Assembly: GCF_004354085.1 (NCBI RefSeq)
Contig: NZ_SMSE01000004.1
Location: 310,001 to 374,000, forward strand
DNA from: Seongchinamella unica
GTDB taxonomy: Bacteria > Pseudomonadota > Gammaproteobacteria > Pseudomonadales > Halieaceae
Reading direction: 5' to 3'
DNA length: 64,000 nt
Positions 17,795 to 21,709 of the stretch are shown in pieces (within the stretch, counting starts at the first letter, position 1; each line of letters begins with the position of its first letter). The translations under genes were made by a program, and so were the position numbers. The notes beneath the pieces are model-generated. The model saw only the letters and a program-made list of their open reading frames with translations. It was not told the DNA's origin and ran no database searches.

Positions 17795-19519
17795 ATGAAA
17801 CAGTTAGGCATTCTAGACGCTGCTTTTATCAATCTCGAGCAAACCAACACGCCCCAGCACGTGGGTGGTCTGGGTATCTATGACCCCTCGACCGCCCCAG
17901 GGGGCTTTGTGCGCTTCAAAGATGTTATCTCCGGTTTCGAGCGACGGCTGTCCAAACAGCCGTTGTTCCGCACCCGGCTGGTTGAGGTTCCCGGCGGCCT
18001 GGACCGGCCCTACTGGGTCAAGGATGCCAACTTCGACGTGGAATTTCACCTGCGCCATATCGCCCTGCCGGAACCCGGTGACTGGCGCCAGTTGTGCATC
18101 CAGATAGCGCGCTTGCACGCGCGCCCGCTGGATATGTCCAGGCCGCTGTGGGAGGCCTATATTATCGAGGGGCTGGACAATATACCCGGACTACCCAAGG
18201 GCTGTTTCGCCATATACACCAAAATGCACCATGCCCTGGTGGATGGTGCCGGTGGCTCCTCGTTCATGGCACTGATCCACGACCTGGTGCCCGACCCGCC
18301 CGCGGTCGACGAAGATGCCGAGGAACCCCGCCTGGTGGATGTCGAACCAAGCATGGCCGAACTGCTCTCCAAAGCCTCCGTCAATGGCGTCAAGAACAGC
18401 GTCAGCCTCATTCGCGGGACGGTGAAAAACACCCTGCAACTGGGGCGGTATGCGCTGGATACGATTCGCGATGAAATTCCGGCGCCGGACATTTCCGCGC
18501 CCAAAACCATCCTCAACCAATCGGTGGGCCCTCACCGCGTATTCGACGCTGCCGAGTTTCCGCTGGACGGGTTCAAGGACATCAAGAACGCCGCAGACGT
18601 TTCCATTAATGACGTGGCCCTGGCCGTTGTCGGGGGAGCATTGCGCCGTTACCTGCTCGACAAGGGGGAAGCCCCCGAGGAGGGGTCTCTGGCTGCGGGC
18701 ATACCGCTGAACATGCGCACCCGCCGGGAAGTGACTGAAGACAACAACCAGGTCGGTTCGATATTCGCCTCACTGCACACGGACATCGAAGACCCGCTGG
18801 AACGCCTGCAGGCCATTGCCCAATCCACGGCAGATGCCAAGGTGGCGGGCGAAAAGAGCCCGCTGGTCGACTCGCTGAAAATTGCCGGCGCCTTCTCGCC
18901 GTTCGTGGTCAAGACCGTGGCCGGGATCTGGTCCCGAAATCATATCTCCTCCTACCTGCCGGTGAACATCTCCACGGTAGTCACCAACGTACAGGGCCCT
19001 GATTTCGATCTTTACTGTGCCGGCGCCAGGATGGTGGACTACTATGGGCTTGGCGTATTGACCCCGGGTGTGGGGTTATTCCACGCCGTGTTCAGCTACG
19101 CAGGCAAGATCACCCTGTCGGTCCTGGCCGACCGTAACATCATGCCCGACCCGGAGTTCTATCACACCTGCCTGCTGGAAGCCTACGAAGAGCTTTATGC
19201 TGCCGCCTACAAATCCAGGCCCGGCAGCAAGAATCCCAAAGCCCAGGTTGATGCGTCACGTCGCAAACGGGTAGTGAGCCCTTCGCCCAAGGCAGCAGGC
19301 GGCACCAAAGCCGCGAAAAAAAGGACAGGCGCGAAAGCCAAACCGGCCGCGGGCACCAAAGCGAAGGCCAAAGCCAAGTCCCCGGCAAAGAAAAAAGCAG
19401 TCGCGAAGGAAAAGGCAGCGGCCGCGAAAAAGAAAGCGCCGGCCAAAAAGAAAGCGCCCGCAAAGCGCAAGGCCGCGACCAAAGCACGGCCCAAGGTGAA
19501 ACCCAAACTGCAAGCGTAA
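17795..19519 (+). CDS. Wax ester synthase/diacylglycerol acyltransferase with basic C-terminal tail
   Basis: A 574-residue WS/DGAT enzyme that joins acyl-CoA to a fatty alcohol or diacylglycerol to make storage lipid. The catalytic motif HHALVDG is at 145-151, with PLWE at 117-120 and the family start MKQLGILDAAFINLEQTNTP. The catalytic fold ends near residue 480. Residues about 488-574 form a Lys/Ala/Pro-rich tail of AKKKAPAKK-type units, resembling histone H1 or AlgP/PhaF tails and absent from typical family members. The tail may bind nucleic acid or the lipid-droplet surface; this is inference. Codon use in the tail is low-complexity but in frame to the stop. Confidence 0.93.
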   Translation: MKQLGILDAAFINLEQTNTPQHVGGLGIYDPSTAPGGFVRFKDVISGFERRLSKQPLFRTRLVEVPGGLDRPYWVKDANFDVEFHLRHIALPEPGDWRQLCIQIARLHARPLDMSRPLWEAYIIEGLDNIPGLPKGCFAIYTKMHHALVDGAGGSSFMALIHDLVPDPPAVDEDAEEPRLVDVEPSMAELLSKASVNGVKNSVSLIRGTVKNTLQLGRYALDTIRDEIPAPDISAPKTILNQSVGPHRVFDAAEFPLDGFKDIKNAADVSINDVALAVVGGALRRYLLDKGEAPEEGSLAAGIPLNMRTRREVTEDNNQVGSIFASLHTDIEDPLERLQAIAQSTADAKVAGEKSPLVDSLKIAGAFSPFVVKTVAGIWSRNHISSYLPVNISTVVTNVQGPDFDLYCAGARMVDYYGLGVLTPGVGLFHAVFSYAGKITLSVLADRNIMPDPEFYHTCLLEAYEELYAAAYKSRPGSKNPKAQVDASRRKRVVSPSPKAAGGTKAAKKRTGAKAKPAAGTKAKAKAKSPAKKKAVAKEKAAAAKKKAPAKKKAPAKRKAATKARPKVKPKLQA

Positions 19520-19686
19520 TCCCGTTTGGGTTAAGCCTCCTGAGCCTGCAAGCGATGACAATAGCCGCCTGGCAGTCGCTCTACCACCGGACCGGCACCT
19601 CAGGATCATAGCCAGGCGATCACCGCCTGGCCGCTGACGCCGCCACGCCAATCGCCACGTCGCGAGCGACCATAACGGACGACCAT

Positions 19687-19713
19687 AAAAAAACCCACCA
19701 TGGCGGTGGGTTT
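19687..19713 (-). terminator. Rho-independent terminator, minus strand, with no obvious gene
   Basis: Read on the minus strand, AAACCCACC-gccat-GGTGGGTTT forms a 9-bp stem with a 5-base loop, running into seven consecutive T. On the plus strand only TTT follows the stem, so the direction is minus. No ordinary gene lies upstream on that strand, implying a short transcript beginning near 19.85 kb. It might also weakly end wax ester synthase transcripts. Confidence 0.7.
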
Positions 19714-19755
19714 GAAAATAACTCTGCGTTGGACCTGGATGGAATGCCATCGACG

Positions 19756-19824
19756 TCACCGCGGAGACGGCGCGCCAACCCCGGCATCGGGGCTCATATA
19801 TCGAGTTGGATCAATCGTAGGCAT
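19756..19824 (-). CDS. Possible 22-residue micro-ORF divergent from LysR
   Basis: ATG at 19824 opens a 22-codon frame with Pro-, Tyr- and Asp-containing sequence (MPTIDPTRYMSPD...), ending TGA at 19756. It lies between the LysR operator and the minus-strand terminator, exactly where a divergent LysR target would be expected. No good ribosome site is seen (only GGAAA 16 bases upstream), so it may equally be part of a non-coding RNA. No known peptide is recognised. Confidence 0.22.
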   Translation of the reverse strand: MPTIDPTRYMSPDAGVGAPSPR

Positions 19825-19829
19825 CACTT

Positions 19830-19883
19830 TGATATGTTTCCAATGTATTATTATTATGATCTTCATAAATTAGATTCATATCA
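19830..19883. promoter_or_regulatory. LysR-type operator with nested inverted repeats
   Basis: TTATGA-tct-TCATAA (19854-19868) is a perfect 15-base palindrome containing the T-N11-A LysR box (19855-19867). A second inverted repeat, TGATATG (19830-19836) with CATATCA (19877-19883), flanks it. The block is AT-rich against GC-rich surroundings and ends 5 bases before the LysR ATG, so auto-regulation plus a divergent promoter is likely. Confidence 0.55.
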
Positions 19884-19888
19884 GACCT

Positions 19889-20893: not shown

Positions 20894-21709
20894 ATGAGCA
20901 AGAAAAAACGGCGGGAAATCCCCCGCTTTCAAACCCCCATTATCGAGACGCACTGTCACCTGGACTATTTACAGGGCGACGAACTGGAAACCGTGCTGGC
21001 CAAATCCCGGGAGGTCGGGATAGAGAAAATCATTACCATCGCGGTCTCACCCGGCAACCTGGACACCGTCAGGGCGCTCGCCAACCAAGGTGATGACATC
21101 TGGGGCACCCAGGGCGTTCATCCCCACGAGGCGGCATCCTACAGCGATGACGTTGACGCCAGGATCCGTCAATCCCTTGAGGAAGATCCGCGATTGCTGG
21201 CGGTGGGTGAAATCGGCCTCGACTACTTTTACGACCACGCCGACCGCGGGACCCAGCGACGGGTTTTCGAGCAGCAACTGCAGATTGCCGTGGACCTGCA
21301 GCTGCCGGTCGTCATCCACACCCGTGAGGCTGACGACGATACCCGGGCGATACTCGCCAATTTCAGCGGCAAACTACCCCGCGGAGGCGTCATCCACAGT
21401 TTTACCTCGGGCATGGCCCTGGCCCAATACTGCCTGAGCGAAGGTTTTATGCTGGGCTTTAACGGAATCGCCACCTTTAACCGGGCGGACAACGTGCGTG
21501 AGGTGATCGCCACGACACCGCTCACCCAGACCCTGCTTGAAACCGACGCGCCCTACCTGACGCCGGTGCCCTACCGCGGCCGACCCAATGCTTCCTACTA
21601 TCTGCCGTTTATTGCCGAGCAGGTCGCCGCAACCATGCAGCTGGAGGTGGAAGAACTGTTGCGACAGGTCTACCGTAATAGCCAGGCTTTATTTTTCAGG
21701 GACGCTTGA
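20894..21709 (+). CDS. TatD family metal-dependent hydrolase/DNase
   Basis: A 271-residue TIM-barrel nuclease-type enzyme. Metal ligands and family motifs are present: ETHCHLDYL, GVHPHEA, GEIGLDYFYD, VIHTREADDD, IHSFTSG and ETDAPYL. Members act as 3'-5' exonucleases on DNA or RNA in quality control and oxidative damage repair. It follows LysR by 21 bases, and its stop overlaps the rapA start (TGATG), suggesting co-transcription with rapA. Which of the TatD/YcfH/YjjV sub-types it is cannot be settled by eye. Confidence 0.93.
   Translation: MSKKKRREIPRFQTPIIETHCHLDYLQGDELETVLAKSREVGIEKIITIAVSPGNLDTVRALANQGDDIWGTQGVHPHEAASYSDDVDARIRQSLEEDPRLLAVGEIGLDYFYDHADRGTQRRVFEQQLQIAVDLQLPVVIHTREADDDTRAILANFSGKLPRGGVIHSFTSGMALAQYCLSEGFMLGFNGIATFNRADNVREVIATTPLTQTLLETDAPYLTPVPYRGRPNASYYLPFIAEQVAATMQLEVEELLRQVYRNSQALFFRDA

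Follow-up and report, generated by a model that had tools for sequence, protein, structure and literature searches.

Which transcript does a LysR-type regulator control when no ordinary gene faces it? The question arises in Seongchinamella unica, in a 64,000-nt stretch of whose DNA (hereafter the window) a LysR gene is separated from a convergent wax ester synthase gene by a gap that carries an operator block, a -10 hexamer, and a terminator on its minus strand (table 1). A preliminary description of this DNA held that the LysR gene lacks a normal divergent target, and we find that the only frames of at least 60 codons facing it overlap either LysR itself or the 3' end of the wax ester synthase gene. 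The same description proposed a LysR-controlled transcript of about 130–150 bases that would encode a micropeptide or act as a small RNA. On the comparative evidence set out below, the unit is probably a LysR-controlled, trans-acting small RNA (sRNA) of ~120 nt that was born from the mRNA of a single-helix micropeptide.

Layout of the Gap and Its Operator

The perfect palindrome described earlier, TTATGATCTTCATAA (19854-19868), is present with 6-bp arms and a T-N11-A box inside, and the inverted repeats said to flank it correspond to a dyad, TGATAT/ATATCA, that is mostly conserved in an alignment of 43 loci. Across these loci a conserved T-N11-A operator lies between the divergent starts. The T-N11-A box is placed upstream, and a second dyad covers the weak -35; in the general model stated in PMC8407307, LysR proteins with such geometry are repressors of their own gene and activators of a divergent one. 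The conserved operator block suggests LysR control of the divergent transcript, and it is likewise compatible with pure autorepression. Elsewhere at this locus, six of eight genomes (the window, upstream of 17795, and L020, L023, L024, L025, and L026) share a conserved AACAATGATATAACGGCGCC some 45–65 bases ahead of the wax ester synthase gene, of which it is likely a regulatory site.

Table 1. Features of the LysR locus in the window.
Feature	Positions	Strand	Remarks
Wax ester synthase/DGAT gene	17795..19519	+	Convergent neighbour; conservation frequent, not universal
Predicted small RNA, ~120 nt	19687..19809	-	38 loci; covariance model 107 bits in the window, which is one of the 16 sequences behind the model; covariation
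Intrinsic terminator	19687..19713	-	Run of 7 T, U-rich stretch before it
P1 closing helix, 3' arm GAGTT	19720..19724	-	Two-sided changes, 38 sequences
Core CATCCAGGTCC	19731..19741	-	CAGGTCC unpaired, candidate seed
Conserved hairpin GATGG-CATT-CCATC	19738..19751	-	Before core; alignment A1 and pair counts
22-codon ORF	19756..19824	-	Frame exists; unconserved; starts upstream of -10
P1 closing helix, 5' arm AACTC	19803..19807	-	5 of 5 P1 pairs with two-sided changes, 38 sequences
-10 hexamer TACGAT	19814..19819	-	TAnnnT here in 43-locus consensus
Weak -35 TGGAAA	19842-19837	-	17 bp upstream of -10
Conserved operator/promoter block	19830..19883	-	Columns conserved over 43 loci, L035 being out of register
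Operator block part AATACATTGGAAACATATCA	19849-19830	-	
Operator block part, T-N11-A box	19868-19854	-	
Operator block part TGATATGAAT	19883-19874	-	
LysR-type regulator gene, 327 aa	19889..20872	+	Divergent to RNA; presumed regulator; Pfam HTH_1 and LysR_substrate
TatD-family nuclease gene	20894..21709	+	Downstream of LysR; adjoins LysR in most relatives

Distribution of the Unit among Halieaceae

The preliminary description had suggested looking for conservation of the gap beside LysR in related genomes, and such conservation is seen. A DNA search with the gap matched 18 of 58 genomes including its own, the other 17 matches falling within ~19682-19888, and the fetched locus of every matching genome except G045 contained a LysR ortholog. 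With a covariance model built from 16 aligned transcripts (alignment A1), 38 of 140 family genomes scored at least 41.9 bits; of these strong matches, 36 are found where a LysR ortholog starts and the remaining two at a LysR remnant (G078 and G081). At an E value of 0.01 the family search matched 88 of the 140 genomes, most matches under 40 bits being terminator-sized; some of these in the genus labelled g12 adjoin its LysR, and g12 slots were read by position instead. Outside g12, LysR orthologs (at least 54% identity) are present in 42 family genomes, with the divergent slot filled in 41 and occupied by a run of N in G035; in G147 the protein search placed the ortholog in two contigs. Named records with LysR relatives include those of Seongchinamella sediminis, Pseudohalioglobus lutimaris, P. 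sediminis, Haliea salexigens, Halioglobus pacificus, and HTCC2148; as Seongchinamella belongs to Halieaceae, we take this to be the family concerned.

Counting the two LysR remnants, 43 loci were readable, and 38 of them carry an ORF-less RNA and five a micropeptide ORF together with the core and the terminator. Beside LysR, Halieaceae conserve the promoter block, the terminator, and a core, CCAGGTCC, that is exposed. Genus g12 often has a shorter RNA, with AGGTC retained ahead of the terminator in 12 of 49 slots. Promoter, structure, and core are intact in both genomes with a LysR remnant, which are draft assemblies: 49 codons of LysR remain as an in-frame remnant in G078 (L092), and LysR is frameshifted in G081 (L055). 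Retention of the RNA despite loss of LysR argues that it is not merely an appendage of that gene.

An order-wide model search of 244 genomes (at least 10 of them from the family), run with filters that lose weak matches, gave no convincing copy outside the family. The best out-of-family match reached 38.8 bits over 42 nt at a locus without a LysR match. One further match (G250, 33.6 bits over 53 nt), beside a LysR homolog of 40% identity (L077/L287), has a terminator and lacks both core and micropeptide, and it was rejected.

Structure of the Predicted RNA

As judged from the -10 hexamer, the RNA would begin at about 19807 +/- 3, and it would end within the T run. In alignment A1, from which L031 was left out by judgement, most transcripts share a CAACTC 5' end, the terminator is common to them, and CATCCAGGTC is unchanged in 16 of 16. 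Among the 38 RNA-type slots CCAGGTC occurs in 32 and AGGTC in 36; AGGTC occurs in 79 of 1,900 shuffled stretches.

The segment 19687-19850 folds with z = -2.67, and RNAalifold alone predicts the core hairpin and the terminator and nothing more. When the 38 ORF-less sequences were fitted to the covariance model, which favours the named structure, the resulting alignment (A3) had 92.3% of its cells paired versus 80.8 in shuffles, two-sided changes in 16 of 24 base pairs, and 90 cells changed on both sides versus 25.3 in shuffles. None of the five measures was reached by any of 500 shuffles, and sliding the partner by 1–3 columns left 14–23 two-sided cells. The unfitted alignment A1 showed a smaller excess (seven pairs versus 2.6 shuffled), with the pair-types measure within the shuffles (60 of 500) and the other four beyond them. 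A swapped-partner test of P1 on 37 sequences (L098 dropped) gave 10.3 for own partners, 8.2 for shuffled ones, and 9.3 for swapped ones, among which the highest value was 10.3; it mislocated the core in several rows, and we rely on the covariation among the 38 sequences.

The strong minus-strand terminator noticed earlier has 10 pairs and its run of seven T, of which three belong to the stem. Perfect-stem terminators on this strand occur in 38 of 38 RNA-type, 5 of 5 micropeptide, and 49 of 50 g12 slots (L145, too short, was left out of this and the ORF slot count) and in 4 of 279 shuffled sequences. One might suppose that the minus strand is silent, the conserved block serving as the LysR operator and the hairpin as the terminator of the wax ester synthase gene, which does converge on it in this genome. 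That the T run lies on the minus strand, that the hairpin is kept at six loci with no wax synthase match in the 7 kb fetched (L021, L022, L027, L032, L033, and L035), and that covariation is seen both in P1 and in the hairpins lying between the promoter and the terminator make this supposition highly improbable.

No Rfam family matched the window at its gathering cut-off, and a lax threshold yielded sub-threshold matches only (best E value 0.038, 22.1 of 41 bits). With a promoter of its own, a conserved structure, a terminator, and no conserved ORF, the unit has what is expected, at the level of sequence, of an intrinsically terminated bacterial sRNA. Comparison strongly supports a small LysR-adjacent transcript with its own promoter and terminator, of about 120 bases in place of the 130–150 envisaged; its control by LysR is suggested by the operator block.

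The 22-Codon Frame and Micropeptides in the Same Slot

That the 22-codon ORF itself is a functional micropeptide is an idea to which we give almost no credence. The frame exists, as reported; its ATG at 19824 is upstream of the -10 hexamer, so that a transcript from that promoter would not contain the ORF start. Furthermore, an ATG is found near the aligned place in five of 43 loci, the window included, and no peptide is conserved. An ORF with a Shine-Dalgarno sequence and a hydrophobic stretch is present in none of the 38 ORF-less slots, in one of 50 g12 slots, and in 11 of 279 shuffled sequences, slots having been searched up to the terminator and shuffles over 250 bases. Of the two products proposed earlier, conservation favours the sRNA in this genome.

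The micropeptide idea did hold in sister lineages. Five of the 43 loci (G015, G076, and G075 of genus g9, G013 of genus g7, and G025 of genus g19) have in the same slot a membrane micropeptide ORF of 24–26 codons, with a Shine-Dalgarno sequence and one hydrophobic helix, located between the common promoter block and CATCCAGGTCC or its variants CATTCAGATCC and AATTCAGATCC, and followed by the terminator. These peptides, exemplified by MFIAATFGLYFALLGWIAWDEIQSAR and its relatives, have dN/dS values of 0.12–0.17 in the three computable of four pairs tried.

Micropeptides also face LysR genes well beyond the orthologs. An order-wide search with LysR only, covering 293 genomes, listed 23 more distant homologs (35–46% identity), and 17 of these face a divergent one-helix micropeptide ORF, namely 11 of 17 in other families (L290 is doubtful and may be chance) and 6 of 6 same-genus paralogs, one of them in the genome of the window (G000:C3, LysR at 441699). 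The six without such an ORF are L285–L288, L296, and L297, of which L285 and L286 are near copies. In L285, L286, L287, and L296, all from other families, no clear micropeptide and no obvious core are seen in the divergent slot. The dN/dS values in this wider set are 0.11 and 0.14 (two f25 pairs), 0.18 (an f4 pair), and 0.22–0.47 (three other pairs), with one pair not computable. Ten family loci (L185–L190 and L192–L195) were fetched by the peptide search itself, and their ten out of ten is consequently no independent evidence. A profile of the five same-slot peptides, run against 24,030 small ORFs, ranked a paralog-type peptide first after them, at an E value of 2; sequence homology among the micropeptides is not proven, and none of six that we scanned matched Pfam or NCBIfam.

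Some paralogous LysR loci (L188, L192, L197, and L200) have a tandem pair of micropeptide ORFs, at G074:C160:11478 and 11594 and G073:C86:20155 and 20271. Inspection by eye also revealed, beside paralogous LysR and micropeptide genes, the apparent end of an RND/MMPL-type transporter gene and a lipoprotein-like gene (L186:1-744 and 781-1443; L192:2560-3069 and 1777-2421).

Phylogeny of LysR and Probable Origin of the RNA

In a tree of 81 LysR proteins the 47 ORF-less rows, as against 28 micropeptide rows, form one side of a branch that has support of 95/86 and a frequency of 96% among 200 bootstrap trees. Sister to the ORF-less rows (98/94 for the two together) are four rows that have both micropeptide and core, and the other micropeptide rows fall outside. 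Nine near-duplicate LysR rows, L303 (the L189 locus), and L077 (the L287 locus) were left out of this tree; L173, whose slot is masked by N, was assumed to carry the RNA, L297 was labelled micropeptide despite failing the helix test, and six outgroup rows are unlabelled. An earlier tree of 71 rows also united the ORF-less rows (94/98), but there the rows with micropeptide and core were not their sister.

On the simplest reading, the core was added to the micropeptide mRNA first, and a single loss of the ORF followed. Both trees are midpoint-rooted, so that we infer the direction of change, for the reason that micropeptide rows span several families as well as paralogs and ORF-less rows a single family. 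We incline to the view that a family-wide regulatory RNA arose once, when the LysR-controlled mRNA of a membrane micropeptide, which already had the RNA element at its 3' end, lost its reading frame, and that genera g9, g7, and g19 are living intermediates with both; the same view holds that LysR with a divergent single-helix peptide of 24–48 codons is a broad arrangement in the order. The open-licence PMC literature on WatR and smORFs and on LysR and small membrane proteins yielded no earlier description of that arrangement, nor did that on Halieaceae sRNAs, LysR-divergent sRNAs, and ORF loss from dual RNAs yield one of the RNA. The presence of a micropeptide in this slot in sister and more distant lineages would also accord with the transcript being a decaying leftover of the micropeptide mRNA with no function of its own. 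The ORF-less structure, core, and terminator, however, persist with compensatory changes across many genera, and we consider such decay very improbable.

Most arguments about how bacterial sRNAs originate rest on isolated cases. In the present case a single slot beside one regulator is occupied by forms that are coding, dual (ORF plus core), or ORF-less, and the tree orders them; if our reading of the origin is true, the step from mRNA to sRNA is visible in present-day genomes and thereby open to experiment. The findings further point to a widespread, unannotated pairing of regulator and micropeptide, and they would supply a first likely direct target for a LysR subfamily that is uncharacterised.

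The Regulator, a Proposed Mechanism, and Known Systems

The best NCBIfam models for this LysR protein are BsrA (132.7 of 480 bits) and LeuO (107.7 of 262 bits), both below cut-off; it scores 35.3 bits against the GcvA cut-off of 288 and 34.3 against the OxyR cut-off of 329. We propose that LysR, bound to the common operator, would limit its own transcription and, upon some signal, would switch on the promoter of the divergent RNA, with its weak -35. The RNA body would be a closed multi-branch structure comprising P1, one or two variable hairpins, and the conserved GATGG/CCATC hairpin, with CAGGTCC exposed as a putative pairing seed, and its end would consist of a U-rich stretch and a terminator module of the Hfq-held type. 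The genome of the window encodes Hfq (100 bits), and this gene, the U-rich stretch, and the seven-T terminator are what sequence would be expected to reveal of an Hfq-dependent sRNA; together they fit a base-pairing RNA held by Hfq. Such an RNA would derive from a single-helix micropeptide mRNA under the same LysR, to which the 3' core was added and from which the ORF later disappeared in a single event.

In the gcvA/gcvB and oxyR/oxyS pairs, too, a small RNA lies divergent to the gene of a LysR-type regulator, and neither pair is known to have a micropeptide history. The RNA described here has no Rfam match at the gathering score, and its LysR is far below the GcvA and OxyR cut-offs. Identity with SgrS was rejected on the same absence of a gathering-score match and because the partner here is of LysR type, which SgrR is not. 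The sgrR/sgrS-sgrT locus of enterobacteria is nevertheless similar in that, according to its published account (PMC4021124), a regulator gene stands beside a terminator-bearing RNA that has a small-protein ORF on its 5' side and a conserved region for pairing on its 3' side; SgrS of Yersinia is without the ORF, indicating that a regulator-paired dual RNA can lose it. SgrS differs in sequence, and in our case an entire clade lacks the ORF as a rule, coding forms being confined to a few genera.

In Methylomonas, the report on WatR/WatS (PMC10355033) describes a LysR protein that controls unannotated one-helix micropeptides via T-N11-A sites, as a repressor at rest and as an activator when acetate is present, and proposes that WatS tunes an efflux pump under acetate stress. 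Micropeptides of this kind can therefore be what a LysR protein works through. WatS peptides are unlike the unit in the window in being ~50 aa long and in that the product is a peptide, not an RNA; the likeness of WatR to our LysR is one of description. The transporter neighbour at the paralogous loci would fit a pump-tuning peptide of the WatS kind. In the BsrA/PA1112.1 system of Pseudomonas aeruginosa, BsrA, a remote homolog of our LysR (which scores below the cut-off of the BsrA model), binds and represses an sRNA promoter, and binding is lost once the portion with the T-N11-A motif is removed, as stated in PMC8407307.

Search for Targets

No target survived controls among core complements, ATG-proximal sites, wax synthase starts, micropeptide mRNAs, and cysH, which cover part of the candidate space. 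The 11-nt complement TTGGACCTGGA occurs at 22 places in eight genomes of the genus, seven of which are the RNA locus and the other 15 all within open frames; in the genome of the window it occurs at three places versus 20 for a reversed control pattern and is thus not enriched. The pattern GGACCTGG-N0-14-ATG has 137 places in that genome, and in 30 of 30 viewed the ATG frame is open for 10–506 codons upstream. GGACCTG is over-represented in the window (29 vs 11.6 expected), probably owing to Asp-Leu codons in coding sequence, and its abundance in the genome makes counts of short seeds useless. Wax synthase starts paired with fractions under 0.05 in four of eight cases, but at differing places, and the mRNAs of paralogous micropeptides of the same genomes did so in one of eight at 0.05; both were rejected.

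The failure of any mRNA partner to survive controls while the core is conserved, and the adjacency of all strong model matches to LysR or its remnant, would suit an RNA regulator that works without base pairing, by protein binding via the core or by acting in cis on LysR expression. We judge this unlikely, though worth keeping in mind, and the two loci that keep promoter, structure, and core with LysR deleted or frameshifted speak against a purely cis role. For a trans-acting, base-pairing sRNA, the reading that we prefer, one of the 15 non-locus complements was of interest as it lies at the start of cysH (identified by NCBIfam PRK02090, 156.7 of 154 bits). In eight of eight genus genomes this start pairs better with the own core than with shuffled ones (fractions 0–0.047). 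With the consensus core, 17 of 27 family genomes without the RNA are likewise below 0.05, versus 18 of 37 with it (rank test p = 0.98; not counted are G022, which lacks a match to cysH, and G035). The pairing is attributable to Leu-Asp codons, and since it is equal with and without the RNA it has no support beyond the genus, which leaves cysH rejected as a target and, at best, a lead within the genus. Strong conservation is seen across the genus (L307–L314) just ahead of cysH, whose translation apparently begins at a GTG or TTG close to the Leu-Asp repeat and not at the first ATG.
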